Origin: Gaertneriomyces semiglobifer
Lineage: Eukaryota > Chytridiomycota > Chytridiomycetes > Spizellomycetales > Spizellomycetaceae
Assembly: GCA_025558075.1 (NCBI GenBank)
Contig: JAHLKF010000010.1
Coordinates: forward strand, 1 to 64,000
Direction of reading: 5' to 3'
DNA: 64,000 bases
Below the pieces are notes generated by a model that saw nothing but the letters and a program-made list of their open reading frames with translations, did not search any database and was not told the DNA's origin. Shown piece after piece: positions 3,104 through 22,067 of this stretch. The position numbers were made by a program, and so were the translations under genes. Position 1 is the first letter of the stretch. Every line of letters begins with the position of its first letter.

Positions 3104-6100
3104 ATGAGTACACTACCATTTCAAGTTGTTGAACCTTCTGCAACCAGGACACCTACCTATGAGGTCACAGTTCGCCGTGCACGAGATGGTCGTCCTATCG
3201 AAATTACGATGCGTGCTATACGTTTGGGTAACGATCAAGCGATTGATGATGATCGGGTTCGAGCTCTTTTTGGGATATCTTTTCGGAGTCGAATCTTTGT
3301 TGAGCTTCAAGCGTACCTGCCGAATTGGACACCAACTCAAATCATGACTCGCGTCCATGGATTTTTACAACTGAGAAATGTGGATGGTCCAGCGGTAACA
3401 GTAAATGAAACGGGCGTAGCGTTACATCATGTGACTGATCGACGCTTTGATGATATGTTGGAACGGGCCGTACATTCACAAACCGAAGTTACCATCTACA
3501 CCATCGCCTATTCTTACTACATTCAACGCGATACTCTGAATGTTGGTGCGGGAACAAAAAGAGGTCTGCGTGGTGTTAAAGGTGTTCGCCAAGCATCTCT
3601 CACCACCCATTATCACAATGATCAACCGGTCGCCTGCGCCGCTGTGGCGATCATGCTCCACTTCATCTATACTCGCCCGGATCTGTACCCTTCGGGAAGA
3701 ATGATGGTAGTTCGGGGTACACCTATGGTTCGTGAAGCTGCAGCGCTTCAGACAAAACTGGGTTGGTCTCAAGAAGTGACCATTGCCCAGTTGGAGGATT
3801 TTGTCAAACATCCTGACTATTCTACCTATCGTATCGTATTGATTATCCCCACGCTCAAGTCCATGGTGATGCACGATTGGTCAGGGGTAGATTATGATTT
3901 TGACGCCCTACCCAACCGTATTGTGTATGTTCACTTGGATGAAGTCAAACGTCACTATGTTTCTGTGGATGCGCCTCCCGCCTTTATCAGTCATATGCGA
4001 CGAGCTCAGAACTGGAACTGGTGCAGTTGATGTTCCAGCACCTTCTACATATCTGCTGGACATTCCTGTTGCGACGAGACTGGAGAGCCCCAAGTTGTAA
4101 GATGGCACGTTTCGTGGAAAACAAAATATGCGATTTGTGCGGCATCTCTTATTCACCAAAACATCGCCATGTATGTAACATGATGAATGCAAATTTTGCT
4201 ATCTGGACGTTAATTTTACAGAACTACGATCGCACCGATGTACCATATGGAAAGATTTTACCCAACACAAACCTACCTTTCTGTCCCACGGTGAGCAGGG
4301 TGAAAAGGACCAGTACATGGTTTGGGCATACGACATTGAGAGTTGTCTAGTACCTGTGCCGGATACGGAGTCTCTCCATTTCATATCGGATGAGGGTGGG
4401 AACTTTGTCTTGGATCAAGAGACGGGTAAAGTTAGAACATACACCGTAACGGAACAAACTCAAGTGCCCAATCTTGTCTGTTACCGGAACCTTTTCGACC
4501 ATGTTGGCGACACCTGTGTTGTGGATTCTCTAGAGGAGTTTATTCATTTCATGCTTCAACACAACGACGGTAAAAACGTTTGTCTTGCACACAATGCTAG
4601 CGGATACGACTCACGGTTATTGTTCAACACTTTAATCAAGATGACCGGCTTAGCCACCAGTATCAAACCGATCTTGCGCGGCGGAAAGTTCATGCGTCTC
4701 CAAGTTGGGAATATGATCTTTCTGGATACCATGCTCCATTTGAAAGGTCGTTTGAAGGATCTGGCAAATGATTTCTTTCCTAATAATGCGGATGTTGACA
4801 AGGGCCATTTCCCTCATCTGTTTAACACACCCGAAAATCAACATTATGTGGGACCTATTCCGGACAAGAGCTTCTTTGACCTGAGTTTCAGTTGTCGCGA
4901 CGCCGCCGAGTTACAGGAATTCAACGACTGGTACGCTACTTGGGTGGGGCGCAACGATTGGAACTTTCGCCATGAAATAGTCAAGTATTGTAAACAGGAC
5001 GTGGAGGTCTTGGTTCAGATTGCTCGAAAATACCACGATCTTTGTACTGAAAACCTGGCAGCGTTCGATGAAGACCTTGCTATCTCCCCATGGTTGCACC
5101 CAACCTCAGCAGGTTATGTCCACAATCTGTTTTTACGTTACAACAGCAAGATGATGGAGCTCGACCTGGACGATCCTGACAGTGTGGCTCAATCAGCATA
5201 CGACAACTGGTGCGCCTTGGAAGCTGAAGAATATTACTTTGATCGTGCTGCGCTCCGCGGTGGCCGAACGGACATTCGAAAGTTTCACCATCGTGTTTCT
5301 GATGCTGACTGGGAACGTGGAGAGCGCATCTCCTACATTGATGTGGTGTCGATGTATCCATTTGTCCAAGTGGTCAACGATTATCCGGTGGGGCCGCCTA
5401 TCATACATATATACGATGACGCTTTCTATCCGTGTTACAAACATTTCAATCGACCGTTAGACGGATGCAGGTGTCATATTGAAGAGAGGAGACGCACTCG
5501 TAATCGACGCATCCATGTTGTTGAACACACTGAACAACCCACACCTCAATACCTAGAAACCTTTTTCGGGATCATCTGTTGCGATGTGACACCTCCAAGA
5601 GATTTGTACCACCCTGTCCTTGTCCACTTTGATCATACACAAAACAAGTGTTTGGCGACCTTGGAACCTTTGAACAAGGGTGTTTTCACTTCGGTCGAGT
5701 TACAAAAAGCGGTCACCTGTGGATACAAGATCTCTCGAGTCTATCGCCTTCACGAGTACAAGCGCGCACCATCTAAATGGTCGGGTTTGTTGCACGAATT
5801 ATAAACTCAAACTGTACAACAGTGGGGAGCTTCGGTCTGAAGAAGAAGGTCAGAGACTCAAACAGGAGTACCTAGAAAGGTTCGGAATGGACATTGACCC
5901 CACAAGTTCCAAAACATGCCAGCTGTCAAACAGACATTCAAAATTCTTTTCAACAGTGCTTGGGGAAAGCATGCTGAGACTGTAGACCATCAACAGAGCA
6001 TCATTGTTCATGAAGAAGATGATGAAGATGTGTCAAGCTTCTTACAGACGGTGACTGACGATACGAACCGTGTCAGCTCTTATGATGCTTTGACGAGTAC

Positions 6101-7016: not shown

Positions 7017-7663
7017 ATGGGCATCGATAACGTTACCGTGTACGCACCACGCAGACCGATAGAACGTGTGAATGTTGGAAGTTGCGGAACCCGTTACTTT
7101 CCGTTGCCAACTGGCGAGAACATCGTACCCGTACTACCATTGCAAAAACCATTTATCAAGACTTCCGGAAATCCGATGTCAAGGCGGTGATACAAGCCCC
7201 TTACCCTTTTGGAAGATTTCATACGTTGGCCGCTCAAACCGATTCAGCCATGAAACGTACTCCAGCATCTGTGAGACTCCGACAACCTCCACATGGAACG
7301 ACACCTGTCATTGCTGGACGTTCGGAAGGTCCTCCAAACGCATTTTACGGTGGTAACGTTGATCAAATTCGCAAGGTTACCTATCAAGACGATCCTATGG
7401 AGGGTATCGAGTACCGCACAGGTAAAATAATGAAAGGTGGTGTGCTTAACTTGAAGACCTCCTCTCCTAGTGACAAGTGGATGAAATACCGAACGACCCG
7501 TTTGGTTGGCCCCACAGGGCGTCATCACGGTCCACCATCACAGGGAACCAGTGTGACGGAACGTCGAGCGTCGAGCAGCAGGGCTTCATCTGGTGGAGTG
7601 GTGATCCCTCATGCTGCGGCGGGGTCTGTTGGGTCGCTCCTTGATGAAATGAAAGGATTATGA
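7017..7663 (+). pseudogene. Unrecognised basic protein gene, probably with one frameshift
   Basis: An ATG at 7017 opens a frame (MGIDNVTVYAPRRPIERVNV...) that runs to 7190. A second frame, open from before 7082 to 7663, carries the rest (YQDFRKSDVKAVIQAPYPFG... to SLLDEMKGL). The two overlap over about 7120-7190 with no adequate intron, which suggests a one-base change. If not joined, the second part could begin at the ATG at 7250 and give 137 aa. The composition is basic and Pro/Gly/Ser-rich without a membrane segment. A virion-associated role would be a guess from position only. Confidence 0.45.
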
Positions 7664-7791
7664 GATAGCGTGCACCTCATACTGTACCTTGCACCCTCAC
7701 ACGACCGTCCGACGCAATAGATACCTCGTTTTCTTTTTTCTTCTTGTGCACACTTGATTATTCATTCTTTTTGTGTAGACGCCGCTCCACC

Positions 7792-8499
7792 ATGCCAAAG
7801 TCAGCTGCACCTACCAAGACTTCCCCATCCTTGTATGTCGCTTCGGCCCAGTCGATGGGCCCACCTACGAAACTGGATGAGACATCATCAGCGTCAGTTG
7901 AAACGAAACCTAAGCGGACTCTTTCAGAGGAACAAAAACAGAAGATGAAGGAAGCTCGCGAGAAACGCCGCCAAGAGAAACTAGCCGAAGAACAAAAACG
8001 TCGTGAGGAAGAACTTTTAAAAGTAAAAGCCGAAGAAGAAGCTGCTAATGCTGCCAAGGCTAGAAAGGAAGCCGCGAACGCGAAACGCCGTGAAGCCCGC
8101 AAACGGAAGCAAGAAACCGTCACCGAAAACGAAAACAGTGACACCAAGTCGGACCCTCGTTCCGAAACCGAAACCGAAGAACGTTCGGACCAAGTGTCGT
8201 CTCCCCCGACAGAGACCGTGAGCAACGGTGTTAGTAAACCGAAACGTGTCCGCAAACCAAAGAGTGAACCTAATTTGGATCCTTCAGAGGACAAGCCCCC
8301 AACCTGGTTCACCAAGTTTGTCACCTCCATTGTGAAGGAGCAAGAAGAGCAAAAAGGTGCCAAGATGACCAAGAAGGAACTGAAAGAGTTGGCAAACCAT
8401 GAGGTTGAACAAAGATGGCATGATGGGTACACTCGTGAACGTGTGCGTGGAGCTGTAGATAACCATGTCGCATCCATGTATTCGATGATTTTTGGTTAA
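7792..8499 (+). CDS. Lysine-rich coiled-coil protein, 235 aa
   Basis: The start is the ATG at 7792 in a good context (CCACCATGCC), although the frame is open further upstream. Residues about 45-115 are an almost uninterrupted Lys/Glu/Arg/Ala helix (KQKMKEAREKRRQEKLAEEQ and onward), a clear coiled coil. A Ser/Thr/Glu-rich segment and KPKRVRKPK basic cluster follow, then a more ordered C-terminal domain (PPTWFTKFVTSIVKEQ ... MYSMIFG). It follows the previous element gene on the same strand and ends 17 nt before the convergent gene. Function unknown; it may bind DNA or act as a scaffold. Confidence 0.6.
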   Translation: MPKSAAPTKTSPSLYVASAQSMGPPTKLDETSSASVETKPKRTLSEEQKQKMKEAREKRRQEKLAEEQKRREEELLKVKAEEEAANAAKARKEAANAKRREARKRKQETVTENENSDTKSDPRSETETEERSDQVSSPPTETVSNGVSKPKRVRKPKSEPNLDPSEDKPPTWFTKFVTSIVKEQEEQKGAKMTKKELKELANHEVEQRWHDGYTRERVRGAVDNHVASMYSMIFG

Positions 8500-8516
8500 C
8501 AATATATGTGCGTCCT

Positions 8517-9719
8517 TTATTCATCTATACGTACATGAAGCAAAACATTTTGACGATGAATGGGAAGCAACCCTGTCAACGTTGATTCAAACACTGAATC
8601 CTCATTGTAGAGTAAAAACAGTTCAGCGTCATCACAGCTGAGTTTGACAAGTTCAGCGAAGCGGCACCATTCGATCCAGTTTTCGCCATACTTGTAAGGT
8701 ATACGTTGCTGAAACCCGATGACAATACACGGATGCATTAGGTGCTTGACTGGTTCCATTGTCACATGAGATGAGGTCGCGTCGATGTGGGGTTGATTCG
8801 GCCCGTAGGAACGTTCGTACAATACGGTAGTGCCAATGGAACCCGCGCCCCATCCCAAGGATTTAAAACGCATGGGGCCTGCCGCACCATAACCTGTAGG
8901 ACGTTCCCGCACTCGAATCATCATCTGTCGCATGCTTCTGTGTCTCACAAATGCTTGGATACGTGAAGGAACAAAGGGGCGGTGCATCAATGTACGATCA
9001 TCGCCCGATTCGTCCAAAATAAACTCATCGTCATCCTCGTCGTCTTCCTCTTCTTGCATCATTGATGGTGCATCCTCCGACCATGTCGAATCTTGCGAAT
9101 GAATCGATTCCGAGTCAATGCCGCTACCTTCTTCCAGAGTCGATGTAACATGTTGTACAGTGCGTTCTGCAATGTGTAATGAAAGATCCTGATCATAGTA
9201 ATTGCAAAGAATGTTACAGGGGGAGTAATCAGCATTATTCCGAAACTGATAAACACAGTACTGCAGTGTCGTATCAAAGATGTTGTCGACGAAATTTCGT
9301 TCTTCACGAGTAATTTCAAAAGCGGCTCCGGCGACAAGGTGTAAGATGTTGAATGTTCGCAACATTTGGTGAATCATGGTGAATGTAGAGACTTTATCCA
9401 CGGTGTGAAGACCCCTGACGAACCGTCGAAAAAACCATCTTAACAACGGTTGGCTGATGTCTACCAGTCTAGCAGCCTCTGCAATCGCATGTCCTTTCAA
9501 CATTGTCAACACAGTGTATTGCAGAACACGTTCCCTCAGCTCTGGTGGTAATCGTTGGGTAAGAACCTTTTGAACTTTAACGTCGTCCAACGTATCTTCA
9601 CTCCAATGGATGCCGGTAAACATTTGCATCTCAAAGCGGCCGTCGTTTGTGACATTTTCAATCTTGAATATCCGTCCATGACGACCGTGTAGTACTTGTA
9701 CGTTTCCTTCGACAGTCAT
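8517..9719 (-). CDS. Unrecognised 400-aa element protein with acidic linker
   Basis: The open frame reaches 9770, but the minus-strand TATA box lies within that extension, so the ATG at 9719 (MTVEGNVQVL) is chosen. An N-terminal helical domain (about residues 50-180, with PPELRERVLQYTVLTMLKG) is separated by a very acidic linker (MQEEEDDEDDDEFILDESGDD, about 230-250) from a C-terminal mixed domain. No enzyme motif was found. The long intact frame beside a dead polymerase suggests recent decay or retained selection. It is divergently transcribed from the gene at 9799 through a very short shared promoter. Confidence 0.6.
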   Translation of the reverse strand: MTVEGNVQVLHGRHGRIFKIENVTNDGRFEMQMFTGIHWSEDTLDDVKVQKVLTQRLPPELRERVLQYTVLTMLKGHAIAEAARLVDISQPLLRWFFRRFVRGLHTVDKVSTFTMIHQMLRTFNILHLVAGAAFEITREERNFVDNIFDTTLQYCVYQFRNNADYSPCNILCNYYDQDLSLHIAERTVQHVTSTLEEGSGIDSESIHSQDSTWSEDAPSMMQEEEDDEDDDEFILDESGDDRTLMHRPFVPSRIQAFVRHRSMRQMMIRVRERPTGYGAAGPMRFKSLGWGAGSIGTTVLYERSYGPNQPHIDATSSHVTMEPVKHLMHPCIVIGFQQRIPYKYGENWIEWCRFAELVKLSCDDAELFLLYNEDSVFESTLTGLLPIHRQNVLLHVRIDE

Positions 9720-10611: not shown

Positions 10612-10779
10612 ACTCCGCTTCCGCACCCACTTTTGCGTTATCGATACCGAAAAAGGTGTTACAAACTATCATGCCCCCTTCTCTCGCGCTATGACATGTG
10701 ACTGGGTGCCCTAACACCCGACACGTGACCTTTTCCGTCGGGTGGTTCTCTTATGCCGGGCATTCAACTGTACTCTTAG

Positions 10780-10909
10780 AACCCTAGACTTGAATACACA
10801 TAAGCTTATTAGAAGGACCAGAGCCTCAGCAGGATCCTCTGCAACAAGAACTTACAACCTTAGACTTGAGAGATAACAGAGCTTATTAGAAGGATCAGAG
10901 CATCAGCAG
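10780..10909. repeat. Imperfect direct duplication, 75-bp period
   Basis: Two copies of about 54 bp, at 10780-10833 and 10855-10909, share cttagactt... and gcttattagaagga(c/t)cagagc(c/a)tcagcag. It lies upstream of the first HNH gene. The interval 10276-11104 holds no convincing gene. Confidence 0.7.
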
Positions 10910-16660: not shown

Positions 16661-17103
16661 TGTAAATATTAACCAGAAGGAAACGATGGTATTTATCCTG
16701 TTGAGACGAATTCAAATAGTTACTTCCACAAATATTCTTTTGTAAGTGGCGTTCTATGTAAACAACTCAAAAAGTTTTCGCTTCGCTTGCATGTTTGCAC
16801 TAGGCTTACAAGTCACACTTGAAATTCACTCGCCAACGCGATTTCACGGATTTCGCGGATTTCGCACGCACACACTACGATATATACTCAGGAATGCTAT
16901 TCTACTCAAAAGTTGAATCAGGAGCACTGTGCTGAGAGAGGTTTGAAGGGCTATCAAACTCTTCTGAGAAATGATCTGCCCTAAACTGACTCAAACACAG
17001 TGCGAAAGAAGTTTCATGTCACTTGCTCATTTTGTCAAACGACTGAAGACAGTCTCTTGCCCGGTTTTCACAATCTGACCACAACACCTGCTCTACCTAC
17101 TCT
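16661..17103. other. No convincing gene
   Basis: AT-rich spacer between HNH gene B and the left inverted repeat. It would contain the HNH B promoter; I see no ORF or RNA gene in it. Confidence 0.5.
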
Positions 17104-17157
17104 GTTAACATCGACTGTTGCTTTAACACAATCCGCTCTATAGATCTACCCACTCTC
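17104..17157 (+). repeat. Left inverted repeat arm
   Basis: Begins gttaacatcgactgttgctt and contains the palindrome tagatcta; ends cccactctc. Its inverted partner is at 21148-21201, differing at four positions. Confidence 0.85.
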
Positions 17158-17284
17158 CGCTCTCCAAGAAAACGACTCGGTATGCTGTTCTGTAAGATGT
17201 CTAATTGTGAAGGGATCTTGACTGACTGCTCACGCGTACGCTCTTTCATGGTGCTGGAGGACAAAAGGCCGATGTGCTGATGCA

Positions 17285-17500
17285 TATGTGCTACTCTTAC
17301 TTGCTACGTGCTACTCCTACTTGCTACGTCCTACCCCTACGTGCTACTCCTACTTGCTACGTGCTACGTCCTGCTCCTATGTGCTACTCCTACATCCTAC
17401 GTGCTACGTGCTACGTGCTACGGCCTACTCTTACGTGCTACTCCTACTTCTATCTGCTACGTGCTACTCCTACATGCTACTCCTACAACGCGCTACGGGG
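17285..17500. repeat. Degenerate minisatellite of 10/20-bp units
   Basis: Repeated variants of tgctactcctacttgctacg, mixed with tgctacg units, cover about 200 bp just beyond the 3' end of the GIY-YIG gene and inside the left arm. Confidence 0.85.
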
Positions 17501-20500
17501 CATTGGGAGAAGGGGCAGCCAGATCAACCTCGGAATAGTCGTACGTTCGTCGACGATTGCTTGATGGCAACCGAACCTGACGAGATTCGGTCGTGGTGCC
17601 TGGTCGTAAGAATTTCAAATTTGCGACTATATGACGCACGTTTCGACCGTACGTTGGTCCTGGAGTGAACCACACTTTCCATTCCAAATAGTATGGATGG
17701 TCATGTCGATCCTCCAAGTATTGATTGAATTTTGACACCAGCGAAGCAGACGCAAGACCAGGTGCGCGCGACGGGTCCGCAAGATTAAAGGTGCCTCCAG
17801 CTGCATACTCCTCATTGAGAAAGTCACGTAAGAGAGCAGCTGCGTCATTTGGGTTAATGGGCAGTTGACGGTTTGCATGACTTGGGCCGTGCTGCTGCTT
17901 GATCATTCCACGTCCCTTTGGCATGGCCATTGGAACAGGTGCTGCTGTTGTGGTATTGTTGTTACTGGTCCCGAGGATACGACTTAGCACCGAGCTCCGG
18001 CGCCTTTGCAAGGCAGGCGCGTTAGCCCTCCAACATCTGTCCAAAGCCGCCGATTGTGCATGAAAAAGAAAGTCATTTCGGCTGAATACTCCTTGGTTTG
18101 ACCCATATCCCGGTCTCGTGATGACGTTCCCAGTACCATCTGTCAAGCCAATACCGTTGGCTAAGAATCGCACGATGCGAACATCGTCTTTTGTCAACGG
18201 AACCATTGCTTTTGGCAATTGGATCAAAAAGACAATGTCTGTTGCTGGCACGGTGCTCACGTCCCTCCAACGCAGCACCATTGTGCCCTTTGCTTGAATG
18301 ACAACTTGGGTGCCTTCTAGATTCTCGTGAAATTCATACAGAGGGCCCCTCAATGCATTTACCCTCCTCTGCCGTTGTCTTTCAGGCGTAAAGAAATCGT
18401 CAGGTAGGAACGAAGCCATGTGACGACTCTTGGCCCGCAGTGCCTCATCTACCAAGTTACGGTCATTCATCCACTCATCATCGTCAACAGCAACACCTTG
18501 CGGCCGGAACATTCTGATTGCATTTATCACTGACTGTGATAAGCCAGCAATCGGCCGCAAATATTGTGTCCGGTTGAGGGAACTGGCATAGTAAAACATG
18601 CCTTCGTCCAAGCTCATCGCCCACCGTTTCCAAACTCTCTCCCGATTAGTCGTGTTGGGTGGCACGTGCAGCATCACATCCGGCAACTGCATTTTCCATA
18701 GCCCATCAACTTGCTGTCGGCGCTCGTTGCTTCTACCTGCCCCTACTGCTTGCTGACCCCGTAACATGCGCTCTTTTGAACGTTCACTCATTAACGCACG
18801 AACCTGTGGTGTGAATTCAGGAATCGATGCATGTCCTCTGACTGCACGAAGGTCTTGTTGATATGTCTGCAAGTCCTGTTTCGCCCCTTCCAAGTGTTTG
18901 TACAAATTTTTGAGCGGCACGTTCCCCATGTTATCATCGTACCTACAGTGATGGTACAGTGCGTTCACCAACGTGTCATGGTCCCCGGGCGTTCCAGAAG
19001 ATGCCGCTTGGCCTGCGAGAATCAGCGCTTGATTCAGAATGTAAATCGACAGTTGCCAGGTCAAGTCATACACTCGGCGTAGCTGTACTGGTTGTTGTCC
19101 ATACTTGTCGTAGCCGGGATGAAGGTGCGGGATCATGATGAAACTGAATCCTGCTGGCGGAGTAGTCTGGGCCGAATCAAAAAGCCAATCTTGGTCAGCA
19201 TACGTTTGAATACTTGGAATTCCAACTTGAGAAATGTAGTTTTGTGAGGGCAAGCCAGAAGTATGAATAAAATTGGCCTTTGCACAAGACGACGGCAACT
19301 GTCCCATTGATAGCACAACTAGTGGACGCGTGATCCGAAGGTACATTGTCACCAGTTCCAGGATGGCGGCGATGTTTCGATGAACCAGCCAGGGATAAAC
19401 ATCGATGAATGACAACGTTCTCGTCTCAAATGTTCCATCCCATCGCATTTGGTTCTTCTCATAAGCTTCTAACCGGCTGAGAAAATCCTTGACTAAATGG
19501 CCAGCTCTCGAGCGACCACCGAAAAACGATGAACAACCAAAGTAATCTTCACGGGTGATATCCTTGCCAAGAATAGTCCCAATGACATGTCCGTGACACA
19601 GATATGGCATCGCTTGTTGCTTTAACATCTCCATGTACCCCACCGGAATTGGGTGAAGAGCAGTACCAGTTTCGGCTGGGTGGTTTTCAGCGTAAAGCTC
19701 CAACTCCGTTATCCAGCCATCAATGCTACGAACCATTTCGTCCGGTGCCACCTCTAGTGTTTGAGCAAACGACGTGAAAAAGCTTGTGCCTAGGTTCGTG
19801 AACAATACGTGGTCTGCGATCGAGGGCACGTATGATGCATAAAAGCCTCCTGATTGCTGGTTCAACAAAGTCCGCTTGTCAAAGTAGGCAATGATTGCAC
19901 GTTCCCGGTCATCCCGGACTTCGGGGCTTGCAAAGGATGGGAGTCGCGCGGCTTGAATCTCATAGGTCCGGCCGGCAGCATAACTATCAGGGGCGTGCTG
20001 TTCCAAAGCAGTCAAAAACTCTGGCAACATTCCACTATTTCTTGAAATGGAATCCTCGATGAAACGCTGGTGAGGCGTGGTAGGTGCCATGCACTTTCCG
20101 ACGTATCGGATGTGAAAGACTGTATCCGGATTGGTGGCCAACTGAATGGTACCAAGCCAGTTCCAAGCTTCTGGAGGTGTAATACCATCTTCCTCCCAGG
20201 TGGCAACAATATGGGCAAGGTCGGTGGCAGTGATTGGCCAGCTGCGAATGTAAAAGAGCTCCGTGCCGTCTTCAACGCTCCCAGAAGTGGGCTCTTCAGT
20301 GGACTCGACCAACTTGAGGGTGTTTATCATATCCTTGTCGGACACTTGCAACTGGTTCCGCATCAATTCGAGAGCACAAGCACGCAAACGGTCACCATTG
20401 CGACTGAGACCTTGACAGAGAAAAGCTGTCAAAGCCGGAACCATCCGATCGACCGACAAGTGGTCAGTGATCATCCTGTTGATGATGACATCGTGAATGT

Positions 20501-20648
20501 TCCTGTGTAGAGCTTCGCCGGTGAGAGGTGTGGTACCGTGCTCTTCTTGAGAGTTGGAAACCTGCTGGGCAACCACAAAGGGATAACGTCGAGAAAACTC
20601 GACCGAGTACGAACGAGGGGGAATCGCTCCAGAGCGCAGACGGGCCAT
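17493..20648 (-). CDS. Large protein with GIY-YIG nuclease signature, 1051 aa
   Basis: A single uninterrupted frame, ATG at 20648. Around residues 166-265 the GIY-YIG pattern can be followed: GTIQL, then HIRYVGK, an Arg in HQRFIED, a Glu in RDDRERAIIAYF and an Asn in LLNQQSGG. These correspond to the catalytic Tyr, Arg, Glu and Asn of the fold. The remaining 780 residues are unrecognised. They include a middle section with IPHLHPGYDKYGQQ, a basic RSKERMLRG segment and an Arg-rich tail. In the known family the domain makes DNA breaks in homing endonucleases, UvrC and Penelope-like retroelements. No reverse transcriptase or integrase is present. Its place between inverted repeats suggests it may mobilise the unit. 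Absence of introns contrasts with most neighbours. Confidence 0.6.
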   Translation of the reverse strand: MARLRSGAIPPRSYSVEFSRRYPFVVAQQVSNSQEEHGTTPLTGEALHRNIHDVIINRMITDHLSVDRMVPALTAFLCQGLSRNGDRLRACALELMRNQLQVSDKDMINTLKLVESTEEPTSGSVEDGTELFYIRSWPITATDLAHIVATWEEDGITPPEAWNWLGTIQLATNPDTVFHIRYVGKCMAPTTPHQRFIEDSISRNSGMLPEFLTALEQHAPDSYAAGRTYEIQAARLPSFASPEVRDDRERAIIAYFDKRTLLNQQSGGFYASYVPSIADHVLFTNLGTSFFTSFAQTLEVAPDEMVRSIDGWITELELYAENHPAETGTALHPIPVGYMEMLKQQAMPYLCHGHVIGTILGKDITREDYFGCSSFFGGRSRAGHLVKDFLSRLEAYEKNQMRWDGTFETRTLSFIDVYPWLVHRNIAAILELVTMYLRITRPLVVLSMGQLPSSCAKANFIHTSGLPSQNYISQVGIPSIQTYADQDWLFDSAQTTPPAGFSFIMIPHLHPGYDKYGQQPVQLRRVYDLTWQLSIYILNQALILAGQAASSGTPGDHDTLVNALYHHCRYDDNMGNVPLKNLYKHLEGAKQDLQTYQQDLRAVRGHASIPEFTPQVRALMSERSKERMLRGQQAVGAGRSNERRQQVDGLWKMQLPDVMLHVPPNTTNRERVWKRWAMSLDEGMFYYASSLNRTQYLRPIAGLSQSVINAIRMFRPQGVAVDDDEWMNDRNLVDEALRAKSRHMASFLPDDFFTPERQRQRRVNALRGPLYEFHENLEGTQVVIQAKGTMVLRWRDVSTVPATDIVFLIQLPKAMVPLTKDDVRIVRFLANGIGLTDGTGNVITRPGYGSNQGVFSRNDFLFHAQSAALDRCWRANAPALQRRRSSVLSRILGTSNNNTTTAAPVPMAMPKGRGMIKQQHGPSHANRQLPINPNDAAALLRDFLNEEYAAGGTFNLADPSRAPGLASASLVSKFNQYLEDRHDHPYYLEWKVWFTPGPTYGRNVRHIVANLKFLRPGTTTESRQVRLPSSNRRRTYDYSEVDLAAPSPNAP

Positions 20649-20856
20649 GATAGATTGGTAAAGCGTATAAGTGTGCTGGTAAAGTATGGTTCGGTGAAAG
20701 ATTCCATGGGACCGAGAATAGAGGAGCCGTACCTGGCATCCATTGCGGCGGTTGATCTGTCAAAAGTATATGTAGGTGTCCGCCAGTTTGACAGATCAAA
20801 CAGGTTGCATATTTCTATTAAAGGCGCGGTCTTTTCGTGACACATCAAAGGACCTG

Positions 20857-20866
20857 TTATATATAA
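20857..20866. promoter_or_regulatory. TATA element upstream of the GIY-YIG gene
   Basis: ttatatataa, symmetrical, about 210 nt before the ATG at 20648. It could also drive a transcript to the right (20867-21147), where short frames exist without support. Confidence 0.35.
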
Positions 20867-21147
20867 TGTCATGGCTATGCACGGTATGTGAGGTTAGCTG
20901 TCAGGCAAGTGAGATACACGACGGTAATAGACGCCATGTGGACGGACACAGTCTTGAAAGGGATAAGAGCACAAGACGGAGCTGCGTGCGATGCGCCGAC
21001 GGGCTCGCCGACGAAGAAAGTCATCTGCCCATTCCTTGCTGGCGCAAGTTACCACTTCCCGCGGCGGCCGAGATCCAGCAACTCTTCTTTACAGATGTGT
21101 CATTGATGAACAGCTTCGAAATTCATGCAACATTCGCAGTGTGATTC

Positions 21148-21201
21148 GAGAGTGGTTAGATCTATAGAGCGTCTTGTGTTAAAGCAACAGTCGATGTTGA
21201 C
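21148..21201 (-). repeat. Right inverted repeat arm
   Basis: Inverted copy of 17104-17157. Immediately outside, 21209-21254 repeats the motif in degenerate form (gtgttaaagcaacggtcaat), and its gagcggatc junction resembles the left arm more than the right arm does. Confidence 0.85.
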
Positions 21202-21278
21202 TGGGGTTGAGCGGATCGTGTTAAAGCAACGGTCAATATTAGCAGAGAGTGGGGAACGCTGATCATTGAACACAACCA

Positions 21279-21360
21279 GTCGCTTTGGCGGAGTGGTTAA
21301 CGCGGTGGCCTGCTAAGCCATTTCCTTCTGGGAGCACAGGTTCGAATCCTGTAGGCGACG
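21279..21360 (+). tRNA. tRNA-Ser (GCT anticodon)
   Basis: Acceptor 5' GTCGCTT pairs with 3' AGGCGAC, with G as discriminator base. The anticodon loop reads CTGCTAA (anticodon GCT), followed by an extended variable arm typical of serine tRNAs. The T-arm is ACAGGTTCGAATCCTGT. No intron. It decodes AGC/AGT. Confidence 0.92.
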
Positions 21361-21690: not shown

Positions 21691-22067
21691 CCGTTGGCGA
21701 CCTGTCATGAGACATTGGATCAAACCCAACAGCGCACTATCCCGCCCAGGATGCAACCTGACCAGAAGTCAGGTTACCTGTTACCTTAAAGCCATCTGCG
21801 ATGCCACTGATTGAGCTGCCTTGAGCCTGCCCCCTCCGCATACCGGAGGTGCTGTTTTCAACCACACGTCGCCCACATAGCAGCTGCAAGCATCAGCCGT
21901 TGGCGACCCGTCATGAGACATTGAGTCACACCCAAGAGCGCACCAGGATGCAAAACGCGACGAGAAGTCGAGGTTACCTGTTATCCCTAAAGGTCCTCTG
22001 CGATGCCACTGATTGAACTGCCTTGAGCCAGTCCCTCCCAATATCAGAGGTTCTGTTTCCAACTCTA
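21691..22067. repeat. Tandem duplication, about 206-bp period
   Basis: Copies start at 21692 and 21898 (cgttggcgacc(t/c)gtcatgagacattg) and share ...tctgcgatgccactgattga(g/a)ctgccttgag. A more distant third relative may begin near 21450. It lies between the tRNA-Ser gene and an ORF remnant, with no coding support inside. Confidence 0.75.

Follow-up and report, generated by a model that had tools for sequence, protein, structure and literature searches.

A tRNA gene-linked, putatively selfish gene family of chytrid fungi with a probable GIY-YIG nuclease domain and a uracil-DNA-glycosylase fold

Introduction

Mobile elements that target tRNA genes and mobile elements that carry GIY-YIG domains have both been described. 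As set out in the available parts of the respective accounts, the retrotransposons Ty1-Ty4, TRE5 and DGLT-A target tRNA genes and are found on the 5' side of many of them (PMC5911963), and Penelope-like elements and Terminons are eukaryotic mobile elements that contain a GIY-YIG domain together with a reverse transcriptase (RT) (PMC5718144, PMC6431247). In the same partial sense, the GIY-YIG genes of polinton-like viruses mostly stand alone, with some fused to a helicase, and no tRNA genes were found near the integration sites (PMC12220804), and in the PGv-1 algal-virus Fanzor/Mariner-type DNA elements a separate accessory GIY-YIG protein of 291 amino acids (aa) is encoded beside other element proteins (PMC3627910). 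Here, we analyse a 64,000-nucleotide stretch of DNA (the window), i.e. positions 1 to 64,000 of contig JAHLKF010000010.1 (C10) in the 20.86-Mb, 66-contig genome of Gaertneriomyces semiglobifer (GCA_025558075.1). It contains a gene for a 1051-aa protein next to a tRNA-Ser(GCT) gene, and this gene looks like one copy of an undescribed kind of selfish element that is aimed at tRNA genes and for which movement is inferred.

An earlier note, made from the sequence of the window alone, had described a single-gene GIY-YIG unit enclosed by 54-bp inverted repeats, and proposed that it could be a new type of mobile element or a domesticated nuclease. That note was silent on a second copy of the right-hand repeat, on the linkage to a tRNA gene and on a glycosylase-fold domain in the protein.

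Results

The window gene is a member of a dispersed family with ten loci in this genome, i.e. the window locus on C10, two loci each on C1 and C9, and one each on C23, C39, C32, C5 and C22. Intact copies are single genes coding for a protein of ~1000 residues with an N-terminal GIY-YIG-like domain and a central domain with a uracil-DNA-glycosylase (UDG) fold, and the family also includes decayed relics (C22 and C32) and fragments (the second loci on C1 and C9). The best protein identity to the window copy is 27-49% at eight of the nine other loci, and the C22 relic retains protein pieces at 52-72% identity, with 76-87% in its four longest nucleotide pieces.

Based on ARAGORN and Rfam, eight of the ten loci have a neighbouring tRNA gene, at a distance of 153 to ~2900 bp from the family gene or its fragment. 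The partner is tRNA-Ser(GCT) for the window copy and the C22 relic, tRNA-His for the C1 copy and the C1 fragment, tRNA-Trp (two genes) for the C9 copy, tRNA-Thr for the second C9 locus, tRNA-Pro for C5 and tRNA-Cys for C39. C23 represents a ninth linked locus; no tRNA gene is present in the first 10 kb, but a nearby tandem array leads up to tRNA-Arg(TCG), the gene for which is intact. Without exception, the nine linked copies are located 5' of their tRNA gene. The chance of at least eight of ten loci lying within 3 kb of a tRNA gene is 6.7e-4 if all 1078 first-look tRNA candidates in the genome, 63 of which were scored, are genes, and 7e-7 with 400 genes; 11 random 4-kb stretches contained zero tRNA genes. 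In the window, the presumed target is the tRNA-Ser(GCT) gene at 21279..21360 on the plus strand, and the 1051-aa gene points away from it. This 82-nucleotide (nt) gene recurs at two further loci, one of which differs at the first base as scored.

The two closest pairs within the family also match in tRNA isotype. Among 23 family queries, the C22 relic matched the window protein only (E 1e-5), and both are at tRNA-Ser(GCT); on C1, the copy and the fragment are both located at tRNA-His and are 59% identical over 116 residues and 73% over 37 residues. Within this genome, the C1 copy is the closest relative of the C1 fragment, and a protein of Gaertneriomyces sp. JEL0708 matches the fragment equally well. 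A long segmental duplication does not account for these pairs, as the two His loci share only 126 bp and, on the downstream side of the Ser genes, the similarity is lost shortly after the tRNA. From these comparisons, each sublineage appears to be tied to a single tRNA isotype.

Beyond this genome, a single-sequence search with the window protein matched only the protein itself, while two alignment-based searches gave 16 proteins, including the window's own, and then 17, three of which were new. The resulting 18 records besides the window's own include the C23 and C1 copies. The named relatives are from the Spizellomycetales genera Gaertneriomyces, Spizellomyces, Thoreauomyces and Geranomyces and from Phlyctochytrium arcticum, and the rest are metagenome proteins. 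Among the named relatives are SPPG_01388 and SPPG_04844 of Spizellomyces punctatus, DFS34DRAFT_678955 and DFS34DRAFT_663601 of P. arcticum, BDZ88DRAFT_247296 of Geranomyces variabilis, and HDU85_002879 and HDU85_002675 of Gaertneriomyces sp. JEL0708. Because NCBI files P. arcticum under Chytridiales, confinement of the family to Spizellomycetales is ruled out. Scans with one peptide pattern confirmed no relative in viral contigs or in prokaryotes, the latter represented by one genome per species. In a phylogenetic tree, the C1 (tRNA-His) copy pairs with one JEL0708 protein and the tRNA-Thr fragment pairs with a Phlyctochytrium protein, both with support 100/100; therefore, the sublineages would either predate the species or have been passed from one species to another.

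The catalytic residues of the GIY-YIG superfamily are Tyr-Tyr-Arg-Glu-Asn in that order. The window protein is encoded by a single-exon gene at 17496..20648 on the minus strand (stop codon at 17493-17495), and the reading frame 17493-20648 is open for 1051 codons, as the earlier note had stated for an intact, intronless gene. Within residues 127-270 (19839..20270, minus strand; FYIRSW, RYVGKC, R195, E249 and LLN263), the catalytic set is present in order as Y133 in FYIR, Y182 with G184 in RYVG, R195, E249 and N263. In an alignment of 20 rows, R135, R181, Y182, G184, R195 and N263 are invariant among covering rows, Y133 is replaced by Pro in one relic fragment and E249 by Lys in one row (P0004). 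The predicted order of secondary structure elements in residues 127-270, strand-(two helices)-strand-helix-helix-strand-helix, is compatible with a GIY-YIG fold, and the N-terminal domain is a probable GIY-YIG nuclease. The catalytic pattern had been placed in residues 166-265, which is correct for Y182, R195, E249 and N263, but the Tyr of the first strand is Y133 and lies before residue 166 because extra residues separate the two strands. Among 16 family members scanned, none matched the Pfam GIY-YIG profile PF01541, a Pfam RT profile at E up to 10, or a transposase or integrase profile; the earlier note had already pointed out the absence of RT from the window gene.

The model of residues 303-547 (19008..19742, minus strand; GKDITRED, FIDVYPW and HLHPGYDKY) has the alpha/beta/alpha fold of UDGs. 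The active site of these enzymes is made up of motif 1, with the catalytic residue, and motif 2, with a His-Pro, and family-4 UDGs, in addition, have four Cys ligands for an Fe-S cluster. In the family described here, D363 and P511 are kept in all covering rows, and position 510 is divided between His (10 rows) and Asp (7 rows) among the 17 rows that cover it. The Cys set of family-4 enzymes was not found, in that no position in residues 303-547 has Cys in at least 60% of 16 rows. A Foldseek comparison with viral structures gave no match at E <= 0.001 and a few weak UDG rows, and sequence searches of Pfam, NCBIfam and PDB returned nothing relevant. The C-terminal half, residues 548-1051 (17496..19007, minus strand), is without a named domain and was not fold-tested alone. 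In the metagenome relatives P0011 and P0012, a long C-terminal extension repeats part of the C-terminal region of the family.

The inverted arms at 17104..17157 (minus strand) and 21148..21201 (plus strand) are 54 nt long and complementary at 50 of 54 positions, as first noted, with a local score of 88 compared to a maximum of 26 in 30 shuffles. The similarity of the left arm spans 17100-17166, and a second right-hand copy of 39 nt (21209..21247, plus strand; 87%) also pairs with 17100-17138. The tRNA-Ser(GCT) gene is 77 bp outside the right arm. Arm-like units are present upstream of all three tRNA-Ser(GCT) genes returned by the genome search. The arms resemble the units of a repeat tract upstream of tRNA-Ser on C22, and arm-like units are also present at a third locus, C10:79.8k, where no family protein matched. 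By contrast with the window copy, none of the six other copies tested for terminal inverted repeats (TIRs), i.e. C1, C9, C5, C22, C23 and C32, has a gene-flanking inverted pair above shuffles; C39, which is at a contig end, and two fragments were left out. There is no target-site duplication at the arms, and their 25-bp outer flanks share no words longer than 2 bases. Because the other copies tested lack arms, no duplication is present and the units occur at a tRNA-Ser gene without a family member, the arms are best read as copies of a tRNA-Ser-upstream repeat, the left one inverted, and not as general element ends. On the strength of the six other copies tested, TIRs are rejected as a general boundary of the element, and the enclosed unit of the earlier note is not supported. 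Comparison of the arms with the 5' end of tRNA-Ser itself gave p 0.21, 0.11 and 0.03 for three units, which is only suggestive of a derivation from the tRNA. A decayed array of 46-bp units is also present at C10:82.5k (stretch positions 7017-7187), ~2.5 kb farther upstream than the units next to the gene-less tRNA-Ser, and no family protein matched in the interval between the two.

Arrays of tRNA 5' ends are found at several loci. On C23, a tandem array of 6237 bp with ~127 copies of a 49-bp unit extends from ~1 kb past the stop codon to tRNA-Arg(TCG), and its units contain nt 2 to 18-23 of this tRNA. The C22 tract upstream of tRNA-Ser has ~14 copies of a 46-bp unit, C39 has a single truncated tRNA-Cys copy, and several tRNA-Trp pieces are present on C9, most of which lie downstream of the first gene for this tRNA. 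At stretch positions 7327-8713 of the C9 locus, scattered tRNA-Trp pieces that include a weak second tRNA-Trp gene lie downstream of the intact gene; for the second gene the strongest match is the neighbouring intact tRNA-Trp gene, which was therefore not counted as a truncated copy. A control tRNA-Cys gene on C4 also has an array. The 19-nt start of tRNA-Cys occurs 191 times in forward and 10 times in reverse orientation in the genome (0 for the reversed control), all starts among the matches listed are within C4:1119261-1128890, and the 700 bp before the tRNA-Cys gene at C4:1135366 are array as well. From the spacing of these matches, the tract probably spans ~16 kb, with interruptions, before one intact tRNA-Cys gene. 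One interruption, at C4:1119940-1121280, has direct terminal repeats and is, by eye, similar to a long terminal repeat (LTR) element; part of its repeat is present at 10775-10909 of the window, with 95% identity over 63 bp.

Upstream of the start codon of the window gene, at 20757..20794, there is a paired CTGTCAAA / TTTGACAG motif. The core of this motif is present in four of six elements within ~160 bp upstream of the gene, with 7 matches compared to ~0.56 expected for a motif picked after it had been noticed, and the pair is a possible shared regulatory site. Several other repeats were observed, i.e. a 20-bp tandem repeat with 10 copies directly 3' of the stop codon (17288-17480), direct repeats with a spacing of ~202-206 bp on the downstream side of tRNA-Ser (21691-22035), a 199-bp tandem repeat with 4.7 copies on the side of the C23 element opposite the array (stretch positions 257-1189), and an exact 29-bp tandem duplication where the reading frame of the C9 copy breaks (stretch positions 5505-5565).

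Discussion

Based on the data reported here, we favor, at about an even chance, a reading in which the window gene is one copy of a tRNA gene-linked selfish gene of chytrid fungi with homing-like behavior. In this reading, the protein would recognise and cut or nick the DNA around the 5' end of its own tRNA gene, possibly with base excision by the glycosylase-fold domain, and host repair would then copy the gene from the occupied locus into an unoccupied homologous locus of the same isotype, as in homing. Alternatively, repair could insert the gene upstream of the tRNA. A position upstream would spare the internal promoter of the tRNA gene, and recurrent cutting and repair might give rise to the arrays, in which truncated 5' ends of tRNAs are tandemly repeated. 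A more ambitious version, i.e. that the family is a new class of DNA-only eukaryotic selfish elements in which the glycosylase and the GIY-YIG nuclease jointly open tRNA-gene 5' ends, homing takes place within an isotype and the cutting makes the satellite arrays, we regard as unlikely.

Several observations weigh against a homing-like selfish gene. In the one genome available, which is represented without alleles, we saw neither near-identical copies nor an empty allele or a target duplication, and we therefore only infer mobility. For the C32 relic, the 9.9 kb examined are devoid of tRNA genes, the orientation of the gene relative to the tRNA is mixed (six away, three towards), and tRNA-Thr and the fragment linked to it, which are 2.7-2.9 kb apart, are separated by a frame of 482 codons. 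Moreover, the loci are partly non-independent, since the C1 pair is ~9 kb and the C9 pair ~10 kb apart. As for the protein, its predicted strand and helix order fits the GIY-YIG assignment in the earlier note, but neither structure searches nor profile searches confirmed it: Foldseek does not recover the fold, and in a profile comparison with GIY-YIG references (E. coli UvrC, Cho and YhbQ and two host GIY-YIG loci, with a poor first reference alignment) 8, 12 and 21 of 100 shuffles scored at least as high as the real comparison. A search of the genome with PF01541 gave two other loci and not the tRNA-linked family; the host gene at C1:50568, which is a different gene, has a GIY-YIG-like start followed by what we take to be CCHC-type zinc-knuckle motifs. 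Glycosylase activity of the central domain is uncertain because the His of the HPG motif (H510) is replaced by Asp in 7 of 17 covering rows. Finally, the long tRNA-Cys array is on a contig, C4, on which no family member was found, and truncated tRNA 5' copies within 700 bp are present at three of nine element-linked tRNA loci (C39, C22 and C23) compared to one of 13 without the gene, which is not significant (one-sided Fisher ~0.17). Twelve of the control loci were drawn from the list of best-scoring tRNAs and not at random, and the gene-less tRNA-Ser at C10:79.8k was negative. Enrichment of arrays at element-linked tRNA genes is, thus, not supported.

This last result speaks for a rival explanation in which insertion is untargeted and copies survive only in a safe haven 5' of tRNA genes that attracts other elements as well, with the arrays being ordinary, unrelated satellites. 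The C4 array, with its inserted LTR-like element and without a family member on the contig, fits this explanation, but neither the uniform 5' position of the nine linked copies nor the matching isotypes of the two closest pairs are readily predicted by survival alone, and we consider this explanation rather unlikely. Quite unlikely, in our view, is a DNA transposon with the 54-bp arms as its TIRs, in which the GIY-YIG protein would be a cut-and-paste transposase and the other arm-like repeats the remains of earlier copies. The arms score far above shuffles, the C22 relic has, at its opposite end, an inverted match to a 54-bp segment located just inside the right arm (score 59, maximum of 41 in 200 shuffles), as expected of longer TIRs, and the left flank, at 16966-16996, resembles that of the tRNA-Ser locus without the gene (score 48, compared to a control maximum of 36). 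However, all six other copies tested lack an inverted pair above shuffles, the flanks share words of at most 2 bases instead of a target duplication, and arm-like units recur in front of each of the three tRNA-Ser(GCT) genes found.

The possibility of a domesticated nuclease, raised in the earlier note, corresponds to a host gene family that acts on tRNA genes, e.g. in repair or replication-fork protection, and is kept or duplicated beside them. The low copy number without recent amplification, open frames of 1046-1089 codons from stop to stop in three copies, and related proteins in several genera are all consistent with such a function, whereas three features fit a parasite better, namely the decayed relics and fragments, a tRNA isotype that differs at most loci, and a divergence inside this genome that is as deep as the one between genera. 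We consider a host gene family improbable and the least favored of these explanations. Of the mobile-element idea in the earlier note, a dispersed family with decayed copies is what stands, while the arms as bounds of a TIR unit do not.

If the homing-like reading is correct, DNA-only, isotype-faithful targeting of tRNA genes would be a separate route to a safe site that is also used by retroelements, and the family could be a source of isotype-specific nucleases. The tandem arrays of tRNA 5' ends, which reach ~127 copies at one element and a much larger number at tRNA-Cys, would be interesting in themselves. A description of the family was not found in the literature covered, including the available parts of PMC5911963, PMC5718144, PMC6431247, PMC3627910, PMC10886601 and PMC12220804, with most subscription journals and preprints outside this scope. 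Within the same scope, we found no eukaryotic element whose main protein combines a GIY-YIG-like domain and a UDG fold without an RT, and the nearest case was the accessory gene in PMC3627910.

The design of the family is overall similar to several known systems, and each of them differs from it in important respects. Like the GIY-YIG homing endonuclease genes of phages, organelle introns and polinton-like viruses, the family has a probable GIY-YIG nuclease in a free-standing, putatively selfish gene, and a given sublineage seems to be restricted to a single type of site. However, it is nuclear, lies beside tRNA genes, and codes for a protein of ~1000 residues with a glycosylase-fold domain. 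The 5'-side position at many tRNA genes is shared with Ty1-Ty4, TRE5 and DGLT-A; unlike in these retroelements, there is no match to an RT or integrase profile, and sublineages appear to be isotype-specific. Similarly, the lack of an RT match in 16 members sets the family apart from Penelope-like elements and Terminons. In the PGv-1 elements, as in this family, a GIY-YIG protein is part of a DNA element without an RT, and the available part of their account mentions neither linkage to tRNA genes nor a glycosylase fold (PMC3627910). The central domain is only 9-14% identical to family-4 UDGs and UdgX and, unlike these, has no conserved Fe-S Cys and is embedded in a larger, nuclease-like protein. 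Thus, targeting of tRNA genes is known from retroelements, and GIY-YIG domains are known from Penelope-like elements, homing genes and a viral accessory gene, while the combination present in this family matches none of them.

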